64,000 bases of DNA from Bdellovibrio sp. (lineage in GTDB: Bacteria > Bdellovibrionota > Bacteriovoracia > Bacteriovoracales > Bacteriovoracaceae). Below are positions 34,763-50,323 of this stretch, piece by piece. Each line of letters opens with the position of its first letter. Position 1 is the stretch's first letter. The notes under the pieces were generated by a model. That model saw only the letters and a list, made by a program, of their open reading frames with translations. It was not told the DNA's origin and did not search any database. A program made the translations under genes and the position numbers. The stretch lies in NCBI GenBank assembly GCA_016187935.1, contig JACPIU010000010.1, positions 1 to 64,000 of the forward strand, in the 5' to 3' direction.

Positions 34763-37180
34763 ATGCTACACCCTGCAGTTTTTCGTGATTTGACCGAATT
34801 AGAACAAAAGATCAAGGGTATATCAGATCGGAATGCGATTGGGATTTGCCCTGGCCCAGCTTTGGCCGATAAATACCGAGAATATCTTGAGCGAATTGGA
34901 TGTGAAAGCGTTGATGTCGTTACTATTTTCAAATTTGCCCAAAATTTTTTGACAACTGATTCTAACTTTAATTCTGCACAATTTTTTAATAAATCTTCCC
35001 TATTATTGTCACTTTCCACTTTGTGGAAGACGCATCTGCCTGAGTTAAGTCTGGCCGATTTTCAGCTGGCGCATAAAGTTTTCACAGATTTGAGGGGGCA
35101 TTTCTTGGTGCCAGATTTTTTAGAAACGATTCTGGTCGATTTTCGACCTGAGATTAAGAAATGCATTTTGTATTTTTGGCATTTTTTGCAAAATGCTAAA
35201 ATTTTAGATGAGCACGGAGTTTATGGAGAATTGGCGCATCAGCTTAGAACACCGGCCCATCCTGCCTTTGAATATCTTCCGACGCAAACATATTTATTTT
35301 TTGGTTTTCGGCATTTTACAGGAGTACAAGTAGATTTTTTAAAATCCCTTGCGATTAAGCATGATGTTTATATTTTTATTCCTGAACCTGCCTATGCCAG
35401 CTCCCGTGCCACAGATTGGATAACGTGGTTATTTCCCAATAAGGAGACAGAAGCACCATCGAGGCAGGATATCCACAAGCCGATGATCCGATGCCAGGTT
35501 ATCCGCCCAACTTATAACAGACATTCTGAACTGCTCATTAAACAACTAGATTGTGCAACCCCGACAAATATCATCCTGGCCAAAAAAGAATTGAATTCAA
35601 CTGATCTCTCCACGATCTATCAAAATAATTATTTTAAATTGGAATCACAAATCTTCACTGGAATTTTAGAGTCCGTTAAGAAAAATATTTTGGCCCAGAT
35701 CGAAACTTGTGCGGATCGTTCTTTTACTGTCGCTGATCTGAAGAATTATATCGATCATGATTGCAAAAAAAAGTTAGCTGAAAAGAATTTTAGAAATCAA
35801 CGCACTATCAAAGTGATGTTATTGCTCAGAGCGAATCTTAAAATTTGGGAAGAATTATCGGCGCAAAATACCGAAGTTGATGGCGACATTTGGAAGTTGA
35901 TTTGTGAATCCACTCAGCTCGATCTGCCGCGGAACTATCTCATCCCAGTCGCTTTTTCGCGCCATTCATCCTCGATCATGTCCATTGAGGGATTAGAATT
36001 GGATCATTCGCTCGGGCGAAGTGTTCTCGTGGTAAGTGAGCAGTACGGAGAAATCATCTCCGACAATAACGCATTCGCAGATAGCATCCTTGGGAACATT
36101 GCCGCATTGTCACCTGTCAGATCGGCAGAATTAGAAAAAAATATTTTAAAGTTTTGGTTAGATGTTTTTCTCGCCAAGGAACAAAATATTCTTTTCTATG
36201 AACAAGGAATCGAAGAACGCAGTTTCTTTTGGAAGATGATGTTGGGGGTCATGGGTCCTCAGCAAGACAGTGTGTCCCTGTTGCATAAGAAAAATGAAAT
36301 TGATGTCTTGGCCCGGTATATCAATCAAAAATATCAACACAAGTCTCTCACATCTTCACGTTTGCAAACTTATTGCGAATGTCCTCGGAAGTTTTATTTT
36401 CAAGAACTTCAGTCTTTTCGATTGGATAAGAGATCAAAAGTTCAATTGGAAAATTTTGAACTGGGAGACATCGAACATCTCGTTATTAAGGATTTTTTCG
36501 AGAACAATATAGAATTTAATTATGCTGCCGTGAACGATCTCGTGAGTATGCGATTGAAAGAGTATTTAAGACAGAGGGCCTTACAAATAAAGAATTTTTC
36601 ATTAGCAACAGCACAAAAAGAAATTCTTGAATACAGCATGAATGGGATTTCTGCTCTTAAAAGTTTAATGAAACAGTACGACTTTACTTCAGTGAAATTT
36701 GAATTTCCTTTTGATGACTCTATTAAGGATGTTCATTTCAAGGGGCGGATAGACTGTATTTTGGAAAATAATCAGGGCTATGCCATTTTAGATTTTAAGC
36801 GTGGAACGGGCAGTATACCTTCAATGAAGGCCTTCGACAGGTTTGAGAAGCTGCAGATTTGGTTTTATTTATCACATTGCCATATTGCTAAAAAAATCCT
36901 TTGTTTCGGATTAATTTGTTTAAGTGGCATCAATGAATCAATGCTAAAGTCGCTTGCGGAAAGTGAGGAAAAGACCGTTCTTATTCCTGAGTGTGATGAC
37001 ATGGGTTTAAAAATGATTACGCATGCGGATTACGAGAAACAGCTTAAAGAGTATCAACTTTATGAAGAAGAAATAGTCAGTGATCTCTATGTTGATGAAT
37101 TATTCAAAGCTTCACCGATGAAAGCGCAAGTCTGTGACTTTTGCGATTTAGCGGCCCTATGCTCAAAAGGACAACTGTAA
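34763..37180 (+). CDS. addB: AddB-like subunit of a helicase-nuclease
   Basis: 805 residues. The C-terminal nuclease has the iron-sulfur staple typical of AddB: Cys540 (in ECPRKFYF) with Cys791-x2-Cys794-x5-Cys800. The PD-(D/E)XK residues are GRID with Asp664 and DFK with Asp677/Lys679. The N-terminal helicase-like part is weak, and no Walker A is visible where Bacillus AddB has one, so it probably has no ATPase. It is shorter than Bacillus AddB. Stop and ATG of the AddA-like gene overlap by one base (TAATG at 37178), supporting a complex that processes double-strand breaks for RecA loading. Confidence 0.85.
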   Translation: MLHPAVFRDLTELEQKIKGISDRNAIGICPGPALADKYREYLERIGCESVDVVTIFKFAQNFLTTDSNFNSAQFFNKSSLLLSLSTLWKTHLPELSLADFQLAHKVFTDLRGHFLVPDFLETILVDFRPEIKKCILYFWHFLQNAKILDEHGVYGELAHQLRTPAHPAFEYLPTQTYLFFGFRHFTGVQVDFLKSLAIKHDVYIFIPEPAYASSRATDWITWLFPNKETEAPSRQDIHKPMIRCQVIRPTYNRHSELLIKQLDCATPTNIILAKKELNSTDLSTIYQNNYFKLESQIFTGILESVKKNILAQIETCADRSFTVADLKNYIDHDCKKKLAEKNFRNQRTIKVMLLLRANLKIWEELSAQNTEVDGDIWKLICESTQLDLPRNYLIPVAFSRHSSSIMSIEGLELDHSLGRSVLVVSEQYGEIISDNNAFADSILGNIAALSPVRSAELEKNILKFWLDVFLAKEQNILFYEQGIEERSFFWKMMLGVMGPQQDSVSLLHKKNEIDVLARYINQKYQHKSLTSSRLQTYCECPRKFYFQELQSFRLDKRSKVQLENFELGDIEHLVIKDFFENNIEFNYAAVNDLVSMRLKEYLRQRALQIKNFSLATAQKEILEYSMNGISALKSLMKQYDFTSVKFEFPFDDSIKDVHFKGRIDCILENNQGYAILDFKRGTGSIPSMKAFDRFEKLQIWFYLSHCHIAKKILCFGLICLSGINESMLKSLAESEEKTVLIPECDDMGLKMITHADYEKQLKEYQLYEEEIVSDLYVDELFKASPMKAQVCDFCDLAALCSKGQL

Positions 37181-40100
37181 TGGCCCGTTTAGAAGTGCGC
37201 ACTCCCAATGATGAGCAAAGATTGGCGATCGAGCATCATGGAGGAATTCTCTTAAGTGCAGGCGCGGGATCAGGCAAAACTTATGTTCTTATTGAGCATG
37301 TGATTTTTCTTTTGGAGGATTTTTTTAAGAAAGAACAAAACTGTAAATTGATTGATTTCGAATTAAAGCGTGAGCTTGGTTCTTTTCTATCGTCGATTGT
37401 GATGATGACTTTTACCAATAAGGCCGCACAAGAAATGCAAATCAGACTCGATAAGCGGTTGCAGGAAAAATTATCGCAGTCGCCCCAGTCACGCCATCAG
37501 TGGCAAATGGTGATTGAGCAATTGCCCCGTTTAAATATGGGAACGATCCATGCATTTTGCATGAAGCTTATCCGTCAAGGTCTCATTGAAGGGGCCGATA
37601 GCCGCGCCAATATCATGTCACAGTTCGCGGCCAATACCTTAGTTCGTGAAGCATGCCATGAATGGTTGAAGCATAAGCACATTGACGAAATGTCGCATCA
37701 GGTTTTTGATACGCTCTTTATTCGTTTTGACAAAATTATTGATTCCTTCTGCAGCATTTTTTCGGACCCCGAATTACGTTTGTCTTGGGAGTCGTCCGAT
37801 GGTACGAATTCTTTTGATAATTTTAATCTCACTATCTCGCAATTGTTTAATCAATATGGTTTGCTTAAAATTCCTGATGCCCAGAAGGCCCTGCAGCCTT
37901 ATCGAGGTACGACTGCTTCCAAATGGTTTTCTACCATTGACGAGTTTTATACAAAATTACAAGGGGTTAAACTTGGTACTATCGAGGGAATTCTGGCTTT
38001 GCAGGAATTGTTTTCTCAATTGGACCGTTTGACCACTCCATCAACCGCCAAGAATGATGAGCAACTTTTAAAGCTTTTTGAGTATTTCAAAGAGTTAAAA
38101 AGTTTTGTTAAGGATTTCGCCGAGGAGATAATTTATTTTCAACAGAACCAAGATGTTTTGGTCAAGCTTTGGTTTCCCGTCATCGAAGAATTGTACATGA
38201 CGATCGCCCGTGCTTGGAATAAGAAAGATGGTTTAACTTTCTCTGATTTAGAATATAACGTCTATTTGGCATTAAACAATCGCGAAGTTCAAAAACAAAT
38301 TTCAAAAACATACAAATATCTAATCGTTGATGAATTTCAAGACACTTCAGAAATACAGTTTAAGATTTTGCAACAGATTATTGATAACGATTTTTCAAGA
38401 ATCTTTTGTGTCGGAGATCCCAAACAAGCAATTTATGGATTTAGAGGTGGTGAGCTTTCCGTTTTTTTAGGATGCCGACATAAGGTGCCTCGAAATCTTT
38501 CTCTCCTTGCCAACTATAGATCACAGGAGAATATCATCAATTTCAATAATGAATTCTTCGACTATCTTTTTCGACTTGGTCCGGATTTTGAAGGTCTTGA
38601 TCAATATGCTGTTCCGGTAGAGTATCAGAACTACCCGCATACAAAGGTTCTGAATTTTAGAGGGAACATTACTCAGATTTCCAATAGCATCTTGATTCAA
38701 GAAGGCGATGATGCGCCTTCGCGCGATGAAATCAATCAAATTGAAGCTTCTCTTATACACCAATATATTAAGGATCAAATAGAACAAAACCAGAACCAGG
38801 AAATTTGTGTCTTGTATAGTAAGTTGGCACCTTCTAAATATCTTATAGACCGACTTATTAGAAGCAATTTGGGTTTTGTCGCACAAATTAAAATCCCCTA
38901 TGCTGACGATCCAACTCTCGGGATTTTGCAATTGCTTCTTCACTTGGTTAATTCAAATGTCGCAAATACAGCTACGACACGTCATTCGGTTCTTACCCTG
39001 CTTGAAAGCTACATCATCCTTTTAGAAATTCCGATTCAAAATCTGCCTCTATCAACCGCTCTCGATCGATTTTTGAACAATTACACTCTTCTTGGACCAA
39101 TGGATTCATTCTATCTTTTCTTATCCGATATCAATCTCAAAGTTGCGGATTTTAGAATTGTCGCTTCTTTATTGGAGGAGATAGTTAAATTTTCTTCTGA
39201 TGATAGCGACTTGATCAGCTTCATATTAAATGAAGAACGCGAGTCAAGTTATTCCACTGAATTTCGCTTTCCTGGTAGAGTTGGCAATATCAAAATAATG
39301 ACTACTCATGCCGCGAAGGGGCTCGAATTTGATCATGTTATTTTGGCAGGGATACATGGCAATGCCAAAGGCAAAATCGATACCCCGACAATTGGTAAAT
39401 GGCCATATAGTTTTCGCTGGAAAATTGGAAACAAAGTAATGCGTACCCCTGCTATGATTCTTGAAGCAAGGGTTGCCCATGAAAAAGATTTCGCAGAATC
39501 CAAACGATTGTTCTATGTTGCCGGCACTAGAGCAAAAGACTGCTTGACTTGGACCAATGTCACGGTGGTTAATCCTAATAAGAAAATATCTGGGAAATAT
39601 GGCAAAAATTGGATTGATGGCTTGCGGAAAATCCAAGATCAGCATGTGGGAAGTGCGACATCTCCTTTTCGTGAAATGAAACCGATATCGATCTTGCCAT
39701 CGGATCAGTCTGAAATTTTAAATCCAAGAGATCGCCGTATTAAACTTACCCGTCCCTTGTTTCATATTGATTCTTCTAATGTATTTTCGGGGATTGTGGG
39801 TGCATCTGACATATCACCCTCGCTCACGCAGGTGGCGATCTCCTCAGAGCTTTCTGTAACTCGTGCTTCGATGCTTGCTGATTGCCCCATGAAATTTTAT
39901 TTGGCGAACATTATAAAATTTACTGAAGAAGATATTGAATATCTAAATAGTTTGACTGCGGAATCGGGAATCATTGCGTCAGATGACAGGGCACAGGACT
40001 GTCATGAATTATCATCGAGTGCAGAACGTGGTAGTCATCTGCACGCTATTCTTTCCCAAGTGATTCAATCCGATTTATCAAATGATGTGCTGACTAAGCA

Positions 40101-40584
40101 TAAAATCAAGCCACGCGACTTGGAATCGATTAATTGGGTTGTAAGCTTACTTGAGCGACATAGACAGAATGGAGACGAATTTTGTTCCGAACAACCGGTG
40201 AAATTTAAATTTGCAGGCCATATGATTACGGGCACGCCTGATTTGGTTATTATTTCAAAACGGCCTGTCCCAGATTTACAAATCTGGGATTTTAAAACCG
40301 GAGCGGGAAAAGTTGAAAAGGAAGAAGGATATTGGGCGCAGTTAAGCATGTATGCGCACTATTATTTTCACAAGAATCCCGAGGCGAAAATAACATTAAA
40401 GCTTGTCTATCTTGATCAACAAATGATCAAAGCTGAAGAAGTCACGTCTGAATCGTGTACTCAGAAACTTGAGCGAATCTGGTCATTAAAGAATGATTAT
40501 CTTGTGTGCAATCATAGGCATTGCTTACATTGCAACTTCGGAAATATCTGCCCTAGGAATGCATTTTCAGCAACATATCTCTAA
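37180..40584 (+). CDS. addA: AddA-like UvrD-family helicase-nuclease subunit
   Basis: 1134 residues from ATG 37180 in the TAATG overlap with addB; the frame is open from 37141. Superfamily 1A motifs: Walker A AGAGSGKT (27-34), FTNKAAQEM, motif II VDEFQD (383-388), GDPKQAIYGFRGGE, TTHAAKGLEFDHVIL and RLFYVAGTRAKD. The C-terminal nuclease shows GTPD with Asp1021, DFKTG with Asp1037/Lys1039, and QLSMYA. Unusually it also has Cys902 (DCPMKF) and Cys1115-x2-Cys1118-x5-Cys1124, the spacing of an AddB-type 4Fe-4S staple. Unwinds and cuts DNA ends with AddB. Confidence 0.9.
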   Translation: MARLEVRTPNDEQRLAIEHHGGILLSAGAGSGKTYVLIEHVIFLLEDFFKKEQNCKLIDFELKRELGSFLSSIVMMTFTNKAAQEMQIRLDKRLQEKLSQSPQSRHQWQMVIEQLPRLNMGTIHAFCMKLIRQGLIEGADSRANIMSQFAANTLVREACHEWLKHKHIDEMSHQVFDTLFIRFDKIIDSFCSIFSDPELRLSWESSDGTNSFDNFNLTISQLFNQYGLLKIPDAQKALQPYRGTTASKWFSTIDEFYTKLQGVKLGTIEGILALQELFSQLDRLTTPSTAKNDEQLLKLFEYFKELKSFVKDFAEEIIYFQQNQDVLVKLWFPVIEELYMTIARAWNKKDGLTFSDLEYNVYLALNNREVQKQISKTYKYLIVDEFQDTSEIQFKILQQIIDNDFSRIFCVGDPKQAIYGFRGGELSVFLGCRHKVPRNLSLLANYRSQENIINFNNEFFDYLFRLGPDFEGLDQYAVPVEYQNYPHTKVLNFRGNITQISNSILIQEGDDAPSRDEINQIEASLIHQYIKDQIEQNQNQEICVLYSKLAPSKYLIDRLIRSNLGFVAQIKIPYADDPTLGILQLLLHLVNSNVANTATTRHSVLTLLESYIILLEIPIQNLPLSTALDRFLNNYTLLGPMDSFYLFLSDINLKVADFRIVASLLEEIVKFSSDDSDLISFILNEERESSYSTEFRFPGRVGNIKIMTTHAAKGLEFDHVILAGIHGNAKGKIDTPTIGKWPYSFRWKIGNKVMRTPAMILEARVAHEKDFAESKRLFYVAGTRAKDCLTWTNVTVVNPNKKISGKYGKNWIDGLRKIQDQHVGSATSPFREMKPISILPSDQSEILNPRDRRIKLTRPLFHIDSSNVFSGIVGASDISPSLTQVAISSELSVTRASMLADCPMKFYLANIIKFTEEDIEYLNSLTAESGIIASDDRAQDCHELSSSAERGSHLHAILSQVIQSDLSNDVLTKHKIKPRDLESINWVVSLLERHRQNGDEFCSEQPVKFKFAGHMITGTPDLVIISKRPVPDLQIWDFKTGAGKVEKEEGYWAQLSMYAHYYFHKNPEAKITLKLVYLDQQMIKAEEVTSESCTQKLERIWSLKNDYLVCNHRHCLHCNFGNICPRNAFSATYL

Positions 40585-40639: not shown

Positions 40640-41371
40640 ATGCTTAGATTAAATGTGATTGGATACCTTGCGGTCTTATCAATTCTTACGTTTGATTTAA
40701 TTCCGCCATTGATTGCCTCAGAGTCGGATACGTATGACTTCACTTGGCTTGATCCGGACAAGGAAGTGTATGTTTTGCAGAATAGGAAATTTAGAAAAAA
40801 GGGAAACTTAAGCTTGCATCTGGGAGGAGGCAAGACAACGTCAGGAGCATTTGTAGATTCATTAACTTTTCAAGGTCGTGCTAATTATTTCTTCTTTGAG
40901 GAATGGGGGATTGAATTTTTGTATTCTAAGAATGAAGGGAAAGAAAATTCAACAGCTATGTCTGTCCGTAATCCTGGTGGTCCTGGTTCGAGACCTTTTA
41001 GAAGAATCGTCACTGATTATAAGGCCGTTATGGCACTCTGGTCACCTTTCTATGCCAAGATAAACACATTCAATCAGATCTTATATTTCGACTGGATTTT
41101 CGGATTGGGATTGGTTCAGTTGAATGAACATAATAACCGCGAGGAGTTCCAGTCGGGTGGTGTCGGCACGTTTGCAGAAAAAAATGAGGAGCACAATGGT
41201 GCGATTTGGGAAATTGGTTTGCAGTTTTATATCAATCCAAGCTGGGATCTCCGGGCCGATTTTACAGGCACGCACTACAAGGCGCAGAAGGCCCTCTCGA
41301 CGGCATCAACCGGAGATGAGGCCTATTATTCCAACTACGACCTGAGTTTGTCCTTGGGTTATAGGTTTTAG
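40640..41371 (+). CDS. outer-membrane beta-barrel protein, GltA/GltB-like
   Basis: 243 residues with an N-terminal signal sequence (cleavage near PPLIA). After DFTWLDPDKEVYVLQNR the rest is amphipathic beta-strands alternating with polar turns (GNLSLHLGGGKT, WGIEFLYSKNEG, DWIFGLGLVQL, DLRADFTGTHY), ending LSLSLGYRF with the C-terminal Phe used by the barrel-assembly machinery. This is the pattern of the barrels found beside gliding-type TPR genes in Myxococcus (GltA/GltB) and Bdellovibrio relatives. First gene of the Glt-like set; the next starts two bases after its stop. Confidence 0.8.
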   Translation: MLRLNVIGYLAVLSILTFDLIPPLIASESDTYDFTWLDPDKEVYVLQNRKFRKKGNLSLHLGGGKTTSGAFVDSLTFQGRANYFFFEEWGIEFLYSKNEGKENSTAMSVRNPGGPGSRPFRRIVTDYKAVMALWSPFYAKINTFNQILYFDWIFGLGLVQLNEHNNREEFQSGGVGTFAEKNEEHNGAIWEIGLQFYINPSWDLRADFTGTHYKAQKALSTASTGDEAYYSNYDLSLSLGYRF

Positions 41372-41373
41372 CG

Positions 41374-42765
41374 ATGAAGCAGTTAGTGTATATCATTTTG
41401 CTGAACCTCTTCTTACTGACGGCTTATGCTCAGAATAATGGCAGCATTAGTCTGAAAAGCATTCAAGATCTGGTGGATTCCGGTATTTACTTTGGGACGA
41501 TTCCTTTCATTAAGGAAACTCTTTATAACTCTGGCGGTGGAGTGGACGTTGCTCTCAATGATATTATCGATGACATCGTCTCCCATGTAGGGCTGCGACA
41601 ATTTGAAGCTCTCTCGATTGATGTTCTGGAACGTTCCCGGGCAACGACTTTACGATATGTCTTGGCAAAAAAATATTTTAATAAGGGAGATTACAATAGT
41701 GCATTAAGTGCTTTAGATGGTCTTGAACGACATTCAAAAAATCTTGCGCCCTTTGTTTCCAATATGAAGGCCTCTGCACTGGCTATCATGAAAAAAACGG
41801 ACGAAGCAGTACGGTACTATGATGAGTGTGTTCGCCAGGCCGGGAAGGCCATTAGTAGTGGTGGCCATACGTCTTTGCGCAAGCGACAACTGATAACTTT
41901 AAGAGATACCTGCATCGTTGGTATTGCCAGAATGCAGTTTGCTTCTGCCAAGTTTGAAAAATCCATTCTGAGTTATCTCGATCTGCAAAAAAAGTCACCA
42001 ATTTGGCCGGAAATTCTCTTTGAGGAGGCATGGTCATCATTCTATACGAGAGATTTTAATAGAACTCTTGGGAAATTGGTCACCTATAAGGCCCCGGTAT
42101 TGGATCACATTTTTAACCCCGAGATCGAAGTCCTCTCTGCGCTTACTTATTTGGAAATGTGTTTATTTGAAGATGCTAAAAAATCTGCGGAAAATTTTTA
42201 TACTAAATACCAACGAGGATATTTAGGGCTCTTAAATTTAATTGGAAGTATGAAGTCAGATTATCGTCATTACTATTCCTTAATTAAGCAAAAAGATAAA
42301 GTAAATTTTGATCCCCTAATCATCAAATTATTGAAAGACATTTGGCGAGATCCTGCGACTCAGGAACTTTTTCAACAGATTGAAGAGGGTAAACAGGAAG
42401 TTGCTGCAATCAAGGCGATTTCCAATGGAAAATTGAAAATTCTTGCTGCTCGAAATTTAAAAGATTCTTTGATACTCCAAAGAGATATTATTGGGAGATA
42501 TGTAAAAAAACGCTTGATCTATCATGCCAGACTTTTGGATAAATCCTTTGAAGACATGTCATATATCAAACTTGAAATTCTGAGTAATATGAAAGGCAAG
42601 ATTTTGGGAATTAATGGCGAGCGCGCCAGAGGCGATATCAAATTTTTAGAACGCAATGAAAAGCAATATTTTTGGACATTTAACGGTGAATTTTGGGCCG
42701 ATGAACTCGGCGATTATGTATTTGCTTTAAAGTCAGAGTGTGGGAATGATGTCGAAAAAAATTAA
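41374..42765 (+). CDS. periplasmic TPR protein, GltC-like by position
   Basis: 463 residues with a signal peptide (MKQLVYIILLNLFLLTAYAQ). Residues 85-300 are tetratricopeptide-like helices (KKYFNKGDYNSALSALDGL; SAKFEKSILSYLDLQKKSP; ILFEEAWSSFYTRDFNRTL). The last 130 residues are helical and charged. TPR proteins scaffold complexes. Its place directly after the barrel gene and before a second, larger TPR gene corresponds to the GltC role in Myxococcus; this is inference from context. Its 3' end overlaps the next gene by 17 bases or more. Confidence 0.78.
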   Translation: MKQLVYIILLNLFLLTAYAQNNGSISLKSIQDLVDSGIYFGTIPFIKETLYNSGGGVDVALNDIIDDIVSHVGLRQFEALSIDVLERSRATTLRYVLAKKYFNKGDYNSALSALDGLERHSKNLAPFVSNMKASALAIMKKTDEAVRYYDECVRQAGKAISSGGHTSLRKRQLITLRDTCIVGIARMQFASAKFEKSILSYLDLQKKSPIWPEILFEEAWSSFYTRDFNRTLGKLVTYKAPVLDHIFNPEIEVLSALTYLEMCLFEDAKKSAENFYTKYQRGYLGLLNLIGSMKSDYRHYYSLIKQKDKVNFDPLIIKLLKDIWRDPATQELFQQIEEGKQEVAAIKAISNGKLKILAARNLKDSLILQRDIIGRYVKKRLIYHARLLDKSFEDMSYIKLEILSNMKGKILGINGERARGDIKFLERNEKQYFWTFNGEFWADELGDYVFALKSECGNDVEKN

Positions 42766-45637
42766 ATTTCTTTTGATATTTCAGGCAGTCTTTTTAGTCA
42801 TCACGTGTACTACCGCTTCAGCCTGGGCCCAAGCGGAACGCAGAACAAAATTGCTGAATCTTGTTAATGAGGAATTACAGGAAATTATTCGGCTAAATAG
42901 ACAGGTGTCAGTAAGAAATCCCAATCTTTTATTGCGTTTAGCTGAGTTGTATCTGGAAAAGGCCAGAATACTTAAAGAAATTGAAAATGAAAAATATCTC
43001 AGCGCTGAAGCCGAGAAAAGAGAACATATCAATAAAAAGGATATTTTTGCTGAGTCCACTAAATATTATGTTAAAGCGCAAAAAGCCTGTCTCATTCTAC
43101 TTAAACGTTTTCCGAAATTCAAAGGAAGAGGCGATGTTTTTTACATCTTAGCATTTAACGCCAAAGAATTTCAGCGCCCCGACAAGGCCAAAAAATATTT
43201 CGAGTATGCGGTAAAACATTCCAATGATACATCCGCAACTTCGCGAAAATCGAAGCTGGCCGTTGCTGAGCTTTATTATAATGAGCAGAAATTTGAAAAG
43301 GCCATTAAACACTATGAAGAATCCTTACGAGAAATCAAGGGAAGATGGTGGACAAAGGATGCTTTCAACCTTGCATGGTGCTATTTCAGAAATGGCCAGA
43401 AGGCCAAAGGAATAGGTTTGCTGCATAAAATTTTTGAATTAAGCAAGCGCTCTGAGTTTTATGATATGTCCCACGAAGTGAAGCGTGATCTTGCTCTATT
43501 CTACGTTGATGCTGGACGAACGGACGATGCTATAAAATTTTATCGTGGTATCGGTGAGGATATAGCCACCTATCTGGTCAAGGTCGCCCAGCATCTCATT
43601 GAAATGAGTAAATTCTCTTATGCGATTAAGGTGCTTAATGAAGCTTTGCCTTTATCAAAAACCCGCGAGCAAAAAATTGATATCCATATCATGCTCTTGG
43701 AAATCAATGAGAAGTACGGAACAGTCGCGAATCATTTGAATTCATTTAATGCGCTTGTATCTATGCATGAACAATCACCGCTGCAAGGGAACCAGTTTGA
43801 ATTAACCAAATACCATGGCGAAAAATATGCAGCAATCTTGCAAAAGGCAGTTTTGTCGAAAGAGGCAGAAAAAGATCAAAAAAGGAAAAAAGAAAAGGCC
43901 GGCCTTGCCAAGAGCTATTTTGTCGGCTTAAGCAAATTAAATAAAACCAACGCGCATGTTTATTTATTGCATATTGCTGAAACTCTATATGGTATTGAGA
44001 GATTTGAAGAAAGTGCATCGTATTATGAAAAATCAGCACAGCTGGCCAGGGCCGCTGGTGATCAAAACGTTTTCAGCAATGCTCAAAAAGGATTAATGGC
44101 GGTACTCGCTCAAAAAAATATCTCTAAAGCGGTTTTAGACAAATATCTTATCTCTGCTTATAAATCAAAATTGACTCAAGATCCCAAGGGTGAAGATGCC
44201 AAGAAAATTTATCAACGATTGTTTCTGGAATACTTTGATAAAAATGAAATCGGCGAAGCCGAAAAGATATTCTGGGATTTTAAGGCAAATTTTCCTGCCG
44301 AAAGTAAAACTCAAGAAGCTATGGTGGCAAAACTTGCTGATGTCTTTTTGGCAAAAAGGGATTTTGCCAAATATGATTTCTATTTTCAAAAAATAAAAAA
44401 AGGTGAGATTGAGGTTAATAATGAAATTAAGCAGAAGATGTTAATCGACTTGACAGCTTTTGATTTTGAAAAAGCAGAGAAAGCGAATCAATCAGGGAAT
44501 AAAGTTCTTGCGTTAAAATATTATTATTCTATTTATAAGAATCCGGAAAAACGTGAAGAATCTAAAAAAATTGCCGCATACAATATTGCTATTTTATATA
44601 CAGAGATGGGCCATGTCGAAAATATTTACAAGTGGGCTTCGAGTGCCTTGGACTTGATGTCGCCTTCAGATGTCAAACACTTTGAAACTTCATTGGTTCA
44701 ATTGGGGGAAAAACTTTTTGCGTTTGGTGCTCCTGAGATGGCAGGGGAAATTGACAAAAAAATATATTTCAAAATGTGCAATGGAAAATTTGATAAGAAA
44801 GATGCTGTGTTCAGAAATGCCTTTATCCTTAAAGTCGCCTCAAATAAGTTTCAAGAAGCTCAGGACATTATCGAGAGTGGAACAAAATGCGGGATCGAAG
44901 GCGAAAGTATGAATTTCGCCCGCTATGAATTGATCGATGAACTTATCGCGCACGACAATTTAACCTGGGCAAAAAAACATATTGATAACATTATCGAGGA
45001 AAAAATTGTGGGCCCGAAGCTGGCGATCTTGCTGGAACGTTTTGCGGAGGCCCTCAGGGACAAAAAAGAGATCGATCTTGCTCGAACGTATATTAGGTTT
45101 ATCCCTAGACTATTCGGGGCAAATGTTAATGTCAAAACATTACCGATTGAGGTCTTGGATGTCTTCGTGCGTTTTCATCTCGCGGAGCTTGATAAAAAGG
45201 CCAATAGTCTTGCTACCCCCCCCCTAAGTTTCCCTGAGGGGCAATTTAATAACCAAATTAAAGCAAAATTCAAAGGGCTGGAGGAGTTAACGACTAAAGC
45301 AGGCGAAATTCTTAAAATGGGTTCCGCCAAAGGTGTCGTGCGCACCTTTAAAATTTTGTCAGACGCCTATCTGGATTTGGCCCACGAAATCGCCAATTTC
45401 ACTCCCCCTGAGAAGGATGCCAATTATGTTTTGGAATTCAAGAGCAATTTAGGGAAAATTGTAAAACAACTTGAAGCCAAGGCCAGCACGTTTTCACAGG
45501 ATGCTGCGAACAGTATTTTAAAAAATAATATCTTGTCTCCTTATAATTATGAATTTTTAAGTCAAGCACCTCAACCTTTGCGTTTGCGATACGTTGCTGT
45601 TCGACGACCTGTGCTTATGGACAGAGGAGGGAGATAG
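42749..45637 (+). CDS. large periplasmic TPR protein, GltD/AgmU-like
   Basis: About 962 residues; in-frame starts GTG 42740 and ATG 42746 also exist, and 42749 (MSKKIKFLLIF) gives the best spacing to GGGA and a clean signal peptide (TTASAWAQ). Nearly the whole protein is TPR-type helix pairs (ADKAKKYFEYAVKHSND-like, EQKFEKAIKHYEESL, KDAFNLAWCYFRNGQ, RFEESASYYEKSAQLA). The length and content match the long periplasmic TPR protein of the Myxococcus gliding complex (GltD, formerly AgmU). It overlaps the preceding gene and is followed without a gap by the lipoprotein gene. Confidence 0.78.
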   Translation: MSKKIKFLLIFQAVFLVITCTTASAWAQAERRTKLLNLVNEELQEIIRLNRQVSVRNPNLLLRLAELYLEKARILKEIENEKYLSAEAEKREHINKKDIFAESTKYYVKAQKACLILLKRFPKFKGRGDVFYILAFNAKEFQRPDKAKKYFEYAVKHSNDTSATSRKSKLAVAELYYNEQKFEKAIKHYEESLREIKGRWWTKDAFNLAWCYFRNGQKAKGIGLLHKIFELSKRSEFYDMSHEVKRDLALFYVDAGRTDDAIKFYRGIGEDIATYLVKVAQHLIEMSKFSYAIKVLNEALPLSKTREQKIDIHIMLLEINEKYGTVANHLNSFNALVSMHEQSPLQGNQFELTKYHGEKYAAILQKAVLSKEAEKDQKRKKEKAGLAKSYFVGLSKLNKTNAHVYLLHIAETLYGIERFEESASYYEKSAQLARAAGDQNVFSNAQKGLMAVLAQKNISKAVLDKYLISAYKSKLTQDPKGEDAKKIYQRLFLEYFDKNEIGEAEKIFWDFKANFPAESKTQEAMVAKLADVFLAKRDFAKYDFYFQKIKKGEIEVNNEIKQKMLIDLTAFDFEKAEKANQSGNKVLALKYYYSIYKNPEKREESKKIAAYNIAILYTEMGHVENIYKWASSALDLMSPSDVKHFETSLVQLGEKLFAFGAPEMAGEIDKKIYFKMCNGKFDKKDAVFRNAFILKVASNKFQEAQDIIESGTKCGIEGESMNFARYELIDELIAHDNLTWAKKHIDNIIEEKIVGPKLAILLERFAEALRDKKEIDLARTYIRFIPRLFGANVNVKTLPIEVLDVFVRFHLAELDKKANSLATPPLSFPEGQFNNQIKAKFKGLEELTTKAGEILKMGSAKGVVRTFKILSDAYLDLAHEIANFTPPEKDANYVLEFKSNLGKIVKQLEAKASTFSQDAANSILKNNILSPYNYEFLSQAPQPLRLRYVAVRRPVLMDRGGR

Positions 45638-46561
45638 ATGATGAGGGTCATGTTACTAATTATCTTTTCTCTTTTGATGATTGCTGGATGCTCGTCTACG
45701 CCGCCAAAAGTAACATCGGAATTTTCTGAAGACATTGAAAAAGAATTTCAGAACGTTGAAAATTCCGTATTCGAGCAATCTGTTCAAGTTAAATATGATG
45801 AAACGAGTGACTTTTATCCGCAGGTGAGTGAGGAAAAAAGTTCTGTCGTCTCTGATGAGACTCTCGATTTAACCAGAGATAAAGAAACGATAGAAGCAGC
45901 TAGCAATGAAGGTCCAGTGGGGCAGGCCATGGCACTTTGCTACTCGAGTAAAAATAATGAAGGATTTAAGATTTTGCAGGGACAAGCCAAATTCAATCAA
46001 AAAAATCCGACATATTATCTGGCACTGGGAAATTGCTACTTCTTACAGGCGAAGTACAGGATGGCGCTTCTTTATTACAATAAGGCGCGTGAAATAAGTC
46101 CTAATTTTGCTCCGGCCATTAATAATATTGGGGTTGTCCATGAAATAGATAATCTTCATCAAAACGCCCTTTCTGCTTATGCCGCCGCAACAAAAAGTCG
46201 CCCCCTCTCTTCTACGCCCTCGTTTAATCAGGCCCAACTGTTACTCCGTTATAATTTAAGCAAACTGGCGCTGCCAATCTTGGAGAAATTGCACCAGACT
46301 GAAAATAATAAAGTTGAAATTATTTTAGCTCTCGCAAACTGTTATATTTTAGAAGGCCGTTTTGGTGAAGCTGTGGTGCTTTTTGAGAGAGCAAAAGATA
46401 ACTACAAACTTCCGACACAACAACTGCTCCACTATGCCTATGTGATGTCGATAACAGGTAAAAAAAATGACGCCAGGGATATTTTAAGTGACATCGATCC
46501 GGCCGATGGCAATTATGATCAGACTTTCTATGCCAAACTAAAACAGGAATTTGGTTTATGA
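45638..46561 (+). CDS. TPR lipoprotein, GltE/AglT-like
   Basis: 307 residues with a lipobox (LLMIAGCSS, Cys about residue 18); Ser-Ser after Cys suggests the outer membrane. An acidic, Ser/Glu-rich linker of about 75 residues leads into TPRs (YYLALGNCYFLQAKYRMALLYYNKA; AINNIGVVHEIDNLHQNALSAY; LANCYILEGRFGEAVVLFERA). A very strong GGAGGGAG ribosome site precedes ATG 45638/45641. An outer-membrane TPR lipoprotein at this position corresponds to GltE of Myxococcus (formerly AglT). Stop and next ATG overlap as ATGA. Confidence 0.78.
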   Translation: MMRVMLLIIFSLLMIAGCSSTPPKVTSEFSEDIEKEFQNVENSVFEQSVQVKYDETSDFYPQVSEEKSSVVSDETLDLTRDKETIEAASNEGPVGQAMALCYSSKNNEGFKILQGQAKFNQKNPTYYLALGNCYFLQAKYRMALLYYNKAREISPNFAPAINNIGVVHEIDNLHQNALSAYAAATKSRPLSSTPSFNQAQLLLRYNLSKLALPILEKLHQTENNKVEIILALANCYILEGRFGEAVVLFERAKDNYKLPTQQLLHYAYVMSITGKKNDARDILSDIDPADGNYDQTFYAKLKQEFGL

Positions 46562-46821
46562 AAACACTTTTTTTAGTTTTTACCATTCTCTGCCTTCAGC
46601 GCGTATTTTGTGCGGAAGTTAAACAAGGTGAGCAACGTGTTATTTATAAGTATAAGCAGTTTGAGAAGTTCGACTTTGATGAGATAGGAGTAGAGGGTGA
46701 TAAAGGGATTCCAGGGGATTTGTCGATCCTACCGCGATATCAAAAATATTTTAAAAATCGTCTGCCATATAGAAAGAATTTTAATCCGGAAATAAGAAAA
46801 TCGGTGGAGAGAGTTTTGTAA
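46558..46821 (+). CDS. small exported protein of the Glt-like cluster
   Basis: 87 residues, coupled by ATGA to the TPR lipoprotein. A signal peptide (MKTLFLVFTILCLQRVFCA) leaves a mature protein of about 68 residues rich in aromatic and basic residues (YKYKQFEKFDFDEIGV, PRYQKYFKNRLPYRKNFNPE). It ends in a short helix. By position it matches the small gene lying between the TPR lipoprotein and the FHA protein in gliding clusters (gltF), but I cannot show homology by eye. The dense aromatic content suggests a binding partner rather than an enzyme. Confidence 0.72.
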   Translation: MKTLFLVFTILCLQRVFCAEVKQGEQRVIYKYKQFEKFDFDEIGVEGDKGIPGDLSILPRYQKYFKNRLPYRKNFNPEIRKSVERVL

Positions 46822-46846
46822 TATTGAAGAGCGAAGAGGGAGACTT

Positions 46847-48775
46847 ATGGCCAATGACACACAAAATATCGGTCTTATGTATGGTCAAAGCGGTAATCAA
46901 AAAACATTTACCGTTCGTCCGGGCCGTGTTCTTGTCGGCAGTTCCGATCGCTGTGATCTGGTTTTAGACTCTTCTACAGTCAGTGGTATTCATGCCGTTG
47001 TTGAAGCAGATTTGGGGGGATTAAAACTCTACGACATGAATTCCGTAGGTGGAACTTTCGTGAACGGGCAGAAAATCGTTTATGCTACGTTGCGACCTGG
47101 TGATGTGATCAAAATGTCGAATATCGAATTGAAGGTATTTAAGGATGTAAAGATTCTTCCTCATAATGACACGATTGATATCAACGAATTGCCGATTCTG
47201 CCTGTGCATACTGAAAAATATCACAATATTGTGTTTGAAACCATTCATCCTCTGTCCACTTTAAAAAATGCAGAATTTTCCGAATATATATTTGAAAACG
47301 AAACTTCGATTCATCCCATTTTTAATTGGCTCCGGGATAAGGAATCAATAGAGGTTCTGGTCATCTTTCGTAATATCATCTTGAGTGCTGATTATTTTCC
47401 AGTGCGCGGGAAGGATTGTGTCTTAATCGGCAATGCCAAGGGAACATCCTATATCGAGTTTCCCTACTTGGGAAAAAATGAAAAACATGTACTGATGACT
47501 GGAGGCCAGGGCAATATCACCATTCATCCTCTACAAGGTTTCAAGATTACCAAACTTTCCAATGGTCAGCATCAGACTATGCGGCCAGGGACTACAGTGA
47601 ACTTGGCTTCAGGTGATTTAGTATGCTTAACCCTGAATGATATTCAGATATTTCTTCAGGTGGGGGAACATCCTCCCAGGGTTCGTATCGCTCCTGTCAT
47701 GCGAGGAGATAAGGATTTAAGAAAATATTTCATCCTGATGTTTTGTATCTTTCTCTTGCTCGTTGGGATGTGTCTGGTTGTCGATGCACCTGTCGAGGAA
47801 AATCAGTTAGAAAAAGATCCGGAACGCATCGCCACCATTCTTTATAAACGTCCTGCCATAACGAAGGCCGTGGCAAAAACACCGACTGAAGAGCATAACA
47901 TTGTTCAACGATCAGTCGATCGTGAACATACCGTGAAAGAACAAACTCCAGAAGTTTCGACAGTCGCAGTACCTGAAGTTACGAAAACTGTTGAATCTCT
48001 TAAAACTGGTGATCCCAAAAAGAAAATCAATAAAGTTGTCAAAAAGGCAGAGCCCAATAAAGGCCCTAAAGACGTTATCAAAGATGTTGTCACCAAATCA
48101 AATGAAAATGCAGTAAGCAAATTGGAATCTCAAGCTGCAAAGAAAGAAGCCGGACCAGCAAAGAACACTGTAGGCCATGTTGACGCATATAAGTTTAATG
48201 AACTTTCTTCATCTCTGAGTGGTATGTTGGCAAAGAGTGGAAATTTTGAGGATGTTTCTACGAAAAGCAATAGCACGTTCAGTGGCGAAGGAAGCTCGCT
48301 CGCGGCTTCCGGTGCCGGCGCTACTTTAAAAACCGCCAAAGTTGAGAATGGCACTGGTAACGTTTCCGGATTGACGAGCGGTCAGCTTGACACGACTAAG
48401 GGACTTGAGGGGATTGTTTCAAAGAAGTCTTATTTCACCGCTGGTCTTCCTTATAAAACAGTGGTGCTGGGAGGTATGGACCCGGATACGATTAGGAGAA
48501 TTTTATTAGAGTATCTCCCGCAGTTTCGATACTGTTATCAAAAGGTGCTTGATCGATCACAGCAGGGGTACAGTGGAATCGTTAAGTTGAATTTTATTAT
48601 TGGTGCCAGCGGCCATGTGACGCGTGCTGATGCCGGCCCGCTTAGTGGTGAACTGCCTGGTGAAGTAAGAGGATGCGTGGTGAATGTATTGCGAGGAATT
48701 GTTTTTCCTGAGCCATTGGGAGGAGGCACTGTCGAGGTGGATCAGCCTATGAACTTTTACCCGAAAGTCAGATAG
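46847..48775 (+). CDS. FHA - transmembrane - TonB-like protein, GltG-like
   Basis: 642 residues, no signal peptide. An N-terminal FHA domain (about 22-97: GRVLVGSSDRCDLVL, SGIHA, NSVGGTFVNG) binds phosphothreonine in the cytoplasm. After a second beta-rich region (130-280) one membrane span lies near 292-314 (ILMFCIFLLLVGMCLVV). The periplasmic part is a long Lys/Glu/Pro/Thr linker ending in a TonB-type C-terminal domain (about 545-640: YCYQKVLD, GIVKLNFIIGASGHV, GCVVNVLRGIVFPEP). This is the GltG plan of the Myxococcus gliding motor, which links inner-membrane energy to outer-membrane parts. No ExbB/TolQ motor genes are nearby. Confidence 0.85.
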   Translation: MANDTQNIGLMYGQSGNQKTFTVRPGRVLVGSSDRCDLVLDSSTVSGIHAVVEADLGGLKLYDMNSVGGTFVNGQKIVYATLRPGDVIKMSNIELKVFKDVKILPHNDTIDINELPILPVHTEKYHNIVFETIHPLSTLKNAEFSEYIFENETSIHPIFNWLRDKESIEVLVIFRNIILSADYFPVRGKDCVLIGNAKGTSYIEFPYLGKNEKHVLMTGGQGNITIHPLQGFKITKLSNGQHQTMRPGTTVNLASGDLVCLTLNDIQIFLQVGEHPPRVRIAPVMRGDKDLRKYFILMFCIFLLLVGMCLVVDAPVEENQLEKDPERIATILYKRPAITKAVAKTPTEEHNIVQRSVDREHTVKEQTPEVSTVAVPEVTKTVESLKTGDPKKKINKVVKKAEPNKGPKDVIKDVVTKSNENAVSKLESQAAKKEAGPAKNTVGHVDAYKFNELSSSLSGMLAKSGNFEDVSTKSNSTFSGEGSSLAASGAGATLKTAKVENGTGNVSGLTSGQLDTTKGLEGIVSKKSYFTAGLPYKTVVLGGMDPDTIRRILLEYLPQFRYCYQKVLDRSQQGYSGIVKLNFIIGASGHVTRADAGPLSGELPGEVRGCVVNVLRGIVFPEPLGGGTVEVDQPMNFYPKVR

Positions 48776-48934: not shown

Positions 48935-49255
48935 ATGGAGATAGTGATTAATGGCAAGACAAAGGATGGGTCGTGGAAGGAAAGACGTCGCGTGGATCGA
49001 GTGCAAGTTTATAATACCATCGCACATCTAAAATGCGGTTTGAATGAGGAAAGTCCCATTAATGATCTCTATGGTGTGGTTCTTGATTTGTCCAGTCAGG
49101 GGTGTTGTGTAATCGTTCATAGTGATATGGTTCCAAGTCCCAATAGTTTTTGTCGTGTTACAATAGGTAATCAAATTTTAATCCCATCACAAATTCGCTG
49201 GATGACTCAAATTGGAAAAGACATTTTCAAACTTGGTCTGATGTATCAGGTATAG
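48935..49255 (+). CDS. PilZ-domain c-di-GMP receptor
   Basis: 106 residues, a single PilZ domain. The c-di-GMP binding residues are RRRVDR (about 17-22) and DLSSQG (51-56), followed by the barrel strands CCVIVHSDMV, FCRVTIGNQILIPSQIRWM and KLGLMYQV. It follows the FHA/TonB gene by about 160 bases with no clear terminator between, so it may be read with the Glt-like operon. A GGGGAGAAAGT site precedes the ATG. Together with the HD-GYP protein it makes c-di-GMP control likely, but its effector partner is unknown. Confidence 0.83.
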   Translation: MEIVINGKTKDGSWKERRRVDRVQVYNTIAHLKCGLNEESPINDLYGVVLDLSSQGCCVIVHSDMVPSPNSFCRVTIGNQILIPSQIRWMTQIGKDIFKLGLMYQV

Positions 49256-49717: not shown

Positions 49718-50323
49718 TTGGCGAAGTATAAAATCATTTCTTTGGTATTGATATTTATCTCATTATCTCTACTTGCGCCTGGCTTAGCACAACCCATTTT
49801 AAAGCTCACACTTACCACCGAAATTAAGGCCAAGATTGGTGAGTTTAAATCTGTTGGCTTAGATAAAAATCGTTCTATTCTAAGTACCGTGAAAGATCTG
49901 TACGACGATGATCGAAAATTTGTGGCCTTTCTTATTTTACTTTTTAGTGTGCTGGTTCCTTTTATCAAGATTGTTTTATTATTGTGGGCCTTGCTCGTAG
50001 CTAAAATGCCACAGAAAGAAAAATTTTTCGAATTTGTAAACAGTATTGGAAAATGGTCAATGGCAGACGTTTTTGTCGTCGCCATTTTTATCGCTTACTT
50101 ATCAACCACAGGGCAAGGTAGTGCGAGAACATTTGAAGTGTCGTACTTAGGTCTTGTTCTTCCTGTCTCGGTAAATACAATGTTTGAATCAAGTTTAGGG
50201 CCTGGCTTTTTTTTCTTTCTAGCGTATTGCCTTATTTCGATTGCTTCGCTTCATTGTGTGAAGGCCCATCTTTACAAAGAGCTGAATTTACAAACTTCGC
50301 CCGATCTCATCAAAATAAACTAA
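49718..50323 (+). CDS. PqiA-family integral membrane protein
   Basis: 201 residues, start TTG 49718 behind a GGGAG site. Four membrane segments: about 5-24, 70-90, 110-130, 160-180. The PqiA/YebS signature lies in the middle (LLFSVLVPFIKIVLL...IGKWSMADVFVVAIFIAYL). It is a single PqiA module, half the size of E. coli PqiA. The family partners with MCE proteins in lipid transport between membranes, but no MCE gene is in the window. It is followed by a membrane protein of unknown type, which may replace the usual partner. Confidence 0.85.
   Translation: MAKYKIISLVLIFISLSLLAPGLAQPILKLTLTTEIKAKIGEFKSVGLDKNRSILSTVKDLYDDDRKFVAFLILLFSVLVPFIKIVLLLWALLVAKMPQKEKFFEFVNSIGKWSMADVFVVAIFIAYLSTTGQGSARTFEVSYLGLVLPVSVNTMFESSLGPGFFFFLAYCLISIASLHCVKAHLYKELNLQTSPDLIKIN

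Follow-up and report, generated by a model that had tools for sequence, protein, structure and literature searches.

Genes and features of the locus

The window, i.e., the whole 64,000-nucleotide stretch of DNA analysed here, contains six consecutive genes on the plus strand at positions 40640-48775, in the order barrel, GltC, GltD, GltE, GltF and GltG (Table 1). A first-pass annotation had described them as mostly overlapping. The six genes were found as described, but overlaps occur at only two of the five junctions (26 bp at C/D and 4 bp at E/F), and the other three are spaced by 0-25 bp. Promoter and terminator scans at the locus gave sites that were not clearly above those in shuffled sequences.

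Table 1. Features at and around the glt locus of the window (types I and II are defined in the next section).
Feature	Positions	Strand	Length (aa)	Basis and remarks
AddB/AddA-type recombination nuclease-helicase genes	34763..40584	+		Named by reading the sequence; upstream neighbours of the type II glt operon
Outer-membrane beta-barrel protein, GltA/GltB (NfsA/B) type	40640..41371	+	243	TIGR04565 OMP_myx_plus; Pfam OMP_b-brl
GltC homologue, periplasmic TPR protein	41374..42765	+	463	NF033756 gliding_GltC
GltD-position periplasmic TPR protein	42740..45637	+	965	TPR models, signal peptide; size and place as in type II relatives
GltE-position TPR lipoprotein	45638..46561	+	307	Lipobox IAGC; TPR models; same place in relatives
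Putative GltF (CglF) homologue, small exported protein	46558..46821	+	87	Signal peptide; NF033764 gliding_CglF
GltG homologue	46847..48775	+	642	Cytoplasmic FHA, one TM helix, periplasmic linker, AgmX/PglI C-terminal domain
PilZ-like gene, 159 bp downstream of gltG	48935..49255	+		PF07238 20.1 bits (cut-off 22.5); RRxxxR and DxSxxG motifs

The barrel protein, whose C-terminal end is ...LGYRF, scored 88.9 bits with the OMP_myx_plus model, above the cut-off of 60, and the tail of GltG scored 51.6 bits with NF033768 AgmX/PglI (TonB-like), also above its cut-off. GltC and GltG were clearly recognised by their own gliding models, although below the equivalog cut-offs: GltC matched with an E-value of 2.4e-24 (86 bits over the C-terminal 330 positions; curated cut-off 450), and GltG, which has an FHA domain and a single TM segment at about 293-312, matched NF033760 with an E-value of 1.5e-32. 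The match of GltF was weak (E 0.002, below the equivalog cut-off), and its gene is kept in both cluster types. The lipoprotein matched the gliding_GltE model at only E 0.047, and no GltD model match was obtained in the gliding-model search of the 42740..45637 protein, so that these two assignments are mainly positional; the TPR, signals, position and conservation of both proteins are compatible with GltD and GltE. The model comparison proposed in the first-pass annotation was accordingly clear for GltC and GltG, weak for GltF and GltE and negative for GltD. The scores of GltC, GltF and GltG below the cut-offs would reflect the distance between phyla. These results support the earlier reading of the six genes as Glt-type components, which would form the envelope-spanning half of a known proton-driven surface (gliding-type) machine that occurs throughout this Bdellovibrio-like family, and GltG is the expected contact to the motor.

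In the FHA domain of GltG from the window and from the sister genome, the Arg of the phosphothreonine contact (GR) is changed to Ser and the Asn (NGT) to Gly. Arg and Asn are the commonest residues at these two contact positions across type II GltG, and phosphopeptide binding by the FHA domain of the window protein may be weakened or lost.

Two types of Glt clusters

The window belongs to a draft genome (G000) of 4.40 Mb in 48 contigs, with an estimated completeness of 99%. Its nearest named relative is Bdellovibrionales bacterium GWA2_49_15 (locus L034), with a GltG of 83% identity. Genome-wide profile searches of G000 found two TIGR04565-type barrel genes, two GltC and two full GltG. These make up the set in the window and another cluster on contig C8, each with one barrel. 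The C8 cluster encodes a vWA lipoprotein, barrel, GltC, GltF, AglR, AglQ, AglS, GltD, GltE and GltG. We use the names type I and type II, which are our own, for the gene orders represented by these two clusters: vWA-barrel-C-F-aglRQS-D-E-G for type I, as on C8, and addBA-barrel-C-D-E-F-G for type II, as in the window, the aglRQS of which lies beside gmhA-trxA-RDD-polA in relatives. The vWA lipoprotein beside the type I barrel (L037 13261-14517, contig C8) is related to the CglD and Bdellovibrio MIDAS adhesin models, and is likely to be the adhesin of the type I machine.

GltC was present in 76 of the 77 genomes sampled from the same order, mostly in at least two copies. When the gene order was compared among 80 loci from more than 30 genera, the two orders recurred, and that of the window was found across more than 30 genera; the operon order, the randomness of which had been named as a ground for doubt, is not random. 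The type of gene order changes only once on the GltG tree, once on the GltD tree and twice on the GltC tree. The window proteins are nearer to those of type II relatives than to their paralogues on C8 (median GltC identity 44% vs 26%). Judged from these sequence comparisons, the split between type I and type II is ancient, and most of the sampled genomes retain the two types together. Divergent Glt-like clusters beyond the two types were also observed (L093 in G011:C47, L106 in G037:C6 and L139 in G074:C67), some of them with their own AglRQS.

Nearly all type II loci of the relatives have addB-addA upstream of the barrel gene. On the other side, a PilZ gene had been noted directly after the operon. 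A PilZ-like gene with a sub-threshold PF07238 score is indeed there, but among the compared type II loci it follows gltG only in the window and in the sister genome (L034), and it was rejected as a part of the machine because this position is not conserved in relatives. Further downstream, at 49718-50323 of the window, a PqiA-like membrane protein (PF04403) is encoded, which is likewise found there only in the window and the sister genome.

The motor of type II machines in relatives

In 24 sampled relatives (22 loci plus L194 and L195), AglS-AglQ-AglR adjoins the type II gltG. The motor block is convergent to gltG in 23 of them, L134 being the exception, and gmhA, trxA, RDD and polA lie beyond the motor in most of the motor-adjacent loci, giving the conserved block addB-addA-gltII > < aglSQR-gmhA-trxA / RDD-polA. 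The window and L034 have no AglSQR block beside gltG, and neither do several other genera. An unlinked type II motor was detected with the AglR and AglS profiles in eight genomes (G002, G018, G040, G041, G056, G060, G062 and G077), mostly still beside gmhA-trxA-RDD-polA. One of them, G077, is the sister genome and nearest relative of the window genome, and has both the type I and the type II motors. On the AglR tree, the motors beside type II loci and those unlinked from them form one clade (support 100), apart from type I. The type II log-odds of the GltG TM segment were 20 for the window and 11 for L034, while all but one of the motor-adjacent proteins gave 26-67. This segment weakly suggests that the window protein is on the type II side, and is not decisive for motor pairing.

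An apparently replaced inner-membrane module in one genus

In genus g6 (G005, G023 and G044; L084, L085 and L150-L153), the type II locus keeps the barrel, C, D, E and F, and has neither gltG nor aglRQS between gltF and gmhA. The type I locus of this genus has a single ExbB/ExbD-like pair and a GltG-like protein of 361-372 aa without FHA. No Agl-type motor was found in the three genomes at the threshold used. The inner-membrane module of g6 looks replaced, and g6, rather than the window, offers the genuine candidate for a type II transducer without a motor.

An assembly gap at the expected motor site

The AglRQS-type motor had been reported as absent. This holds for the contig of the window, on which no ExbB/ExbD gene was found, but not beyond it. 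In the whole-assembly search for AglR, AglQ and AglS that had been suggested earlier, no triple of one MotA/ExbB-like gene with two ExbD-like genes was found other than the type I motor on C8; AglR and AglS profile searches of G000 found no type II motor. A DNA search of G000 with the 20 kb motor region of the sister genome matched nothing beyond the type I aglR and one short stretch, and the region was therefore traced with protein markers. The other ExbB/ExbD pairs of the assembly were rejected as the missing motor, with one ExbD each and scores well under those of both Agl types (AglR at most 128 bits vs 347).

The genes around the type II motor are missing as well. No match to polA was found in the G000 assembly, while it was present in six of six other genomes tested, one copy each. 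No match was found there to gmhA and dapF, and the groEL orthologue of the sister genome had no close match, the best being 48% identical as compared with 74-94% for neighbouring genes. Contig C18 (48,077 bp) matches contig C23 of G077 up to about 44.1 kb, the last match ending 143 bp before the end of C18, and the first match of C35 is at about 77.5 kb of C23, 262 bp inside the start of C35. The 33 kb of C23 between these matches contain dapF, the type II motor (65.1-66.9 kb), gmhA, trxA, polA and groESL. About 33 kb including polA, dapF and groESL is absent from the draft despite its stated completeness. A real loss of this region is implausible, because several of its genes are essential or nearly universal. 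From the synteny, we infer that the missing polA/dapF/gmhA/groEL region is an assembly gap, most simply read as a missing contig. The type II motor is probably present elsewhere on the chromosome of this organism, inside the gap, as judged from the sister genome. The first 262 bases of C35 have no match to the sister genome, and a small local rearrangement may conceivably have occurred at this edge.

The absence of the motor from the locus is local only, and is not a property of the type II machine, because AglRQS adjoins the operon in 24 relatives, is unlinked in eight, and would fall within the assembly gap in this genome.

Discussion

We consider it highly probable that the window carries the transducer half of a second, type II Agl-Glt machine, which was split from its own motor and whose motor region was lost to an assembly gap. 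In this machine, the proton-driven inner-membrane complex of type II AglR, AglQ and AglS would drive GltG via its TM helix. The periplasmic tail of GltG would transmit the force through the TPR proteins (GltD, GltC and the lipoprotein GltE) and GltF to the outer-membrane barrel. The barrel would then carry an adhesin or a polymer over the surface, serving gliding or a similar surface-transport task. A chromosomal break after gltG would have parted the transducer operon, still at its ancestral place behind addBA, from the motor; in the nearest relative, the motor has remained with gmhA-trxA-RDD-polA. We infer the physical pairing of type II GltG with type II AglR, the force transmission and the biological task. 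The proposed chain is that of Myxococcus xanthus, but with a single barrel. In M. xanthus, the AglRQS motor is powered by protons, an outer-membrane subcomplex consists of GltA/B/C, and the whole assembly is assumed to cross the envelope (PMC3858216, PMC4488436); two-hybrid assays showed contact of AglR with GltG as well as with NfsG (PMC3858216).

The C8 triple is the only Agl-type motor found in the assembly, and the transducer of the window might have lost its own motor and use the type I AglRQS. A precedent is the Nfs system of M. xanthus, which lacks a dedicated motor and relies on AglRQS via the AglR-NfsG contact (PMC3858216). We regard such sharing as quite improbable, since the expected site of the type II motor falls in an assembly gap from which polA, dapF and groEL are missing too, the sister genome has both motors, and the TM segment of the window GltG stays on the type II side. 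It is scarcely credible that the locus encodes a generic TonB/Tol-like or other TPR-barrel envelope system rather than Glt. TPR and FHA domains are common, and no component exceeds an equivalog cut-off, but the GltC and GltG models match at E-values of 1e-24 to 1e-32, the barrel and tail families are above their cut-offs, the order is that of Glt and Nfs, and relatives have a linked AglRQS-like triple containing two ExbD-like genes.

The task is a different matter. It is a serious possibility, to which we give somewhat less than even credence, that the type I machine with its vWA/MIDAS lipoprotein glides and type II serves another purpose, such as surface polymer transport, prey entry or exit, or envelope maintenance. 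This alternative is compatible with the proposed anatomy and competes on the task only. The vWA lipoprotein related to CglD and the Bdellovibrio MIDAS adhesins is carried by type I and not by type II, the paralogous Nfs cluster of M. xanthus took a different task in the spore coat (PMC3858216), and the operons of Bdellovibrio bacteriovorus differ in expression (PMC2797640). On the other hand, the side-by-side conservation of both types in most genomes does not tell the task. A more extended scheme, with two anciently separate Agl-Glt machines each having its own motor, a non-gliding type II, halves that remain paired despite repeated gene separation, and one genus with a swapped-in ExbB/ExbD-TonB-like drive, is offered tentatively and is rather unlikely to hold in full.

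A single-locus Glt paralogue without motor genes is already known (Nfs, PMC3858216), as are several Glt sets per genome and the lack of GltH-K in B. bacteriovorus (PMC3169522). The newer points are the ancient split into two types, the repeated separation of motor and transducer, and the apparently replaced inner-membrane module of one genus. In the literature searched, neither the two-type scheme nor the polA-linked motor nor the repeated split was found described for this family of Bdellovibrio-like bacteria, which does not prove that no description exists. A 2026 review called the motility machinery of Bdellovibrionota unidentified (PMC13104615), and two conserved, separable Agl-Glt types with named neighbourhoods provide a short list of candidate motility genes. 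A false lead is also removed, as a motor-less machine is not shown at the window.

Comparison with known systems

Compared with the Agl-Glt system of M. xanthus (clusters G1, G2 and M1), the window shares homologues of GltC and GltG, a putative homologue of GltF, the GltD and GltE positions and an outer-membrane barrel, and its relatives share AglRQS. It differs in having the transducer in one operon and one barrel instead of GltA and GltB, which are a mutually stabilising pair, both needed, in M. xanthus (PMC4488436). The fusion into one operon had been pointed out as unlike Myxococcus; the single operon is real, but the arrangement is not new, since nfsA-H of M. xanthus already form one locus (PMC3858216). 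Like the window, Nfs has the order barrel(s)-C-D-E-F-G in a single locus with neither motor genes nor GltI/J/K paralogues (PMC3858216). Unlike it, Nfs has two barrels and NfsH and makes use of the gliding motor; in relatives of the window, the type II machine comes with a motor type of its own.

No GltH, GltI, GltJ or GltK was found in the window locus with ORFs and family models. The missing GltJ-type partner noted earlier is no peculiarity, as B. bacteriovorus as a rule lacks GltH-K (PMC3169522). In Anaeromyxobacter, G1 and G2 are grouped together, and several agl/glt sets occur in Bdellovibrio (PMC3169522, PMC2797640). The closest likeness within the phylum, by description and not by sequence, is to the operons Bd0412-0420, Bd0828-0838, Bd1473-1483 and Bd2368-2377 of B. 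bacteriovorus HD100, which likewise represent several expanded core sets per genome without GltH-K (PMC3169522, PMC2797640). B. bacteriovorus is a gliding species (PMC3169522), and the expression of the four operons differs between predatory and host-independent growth (PMC2797640).
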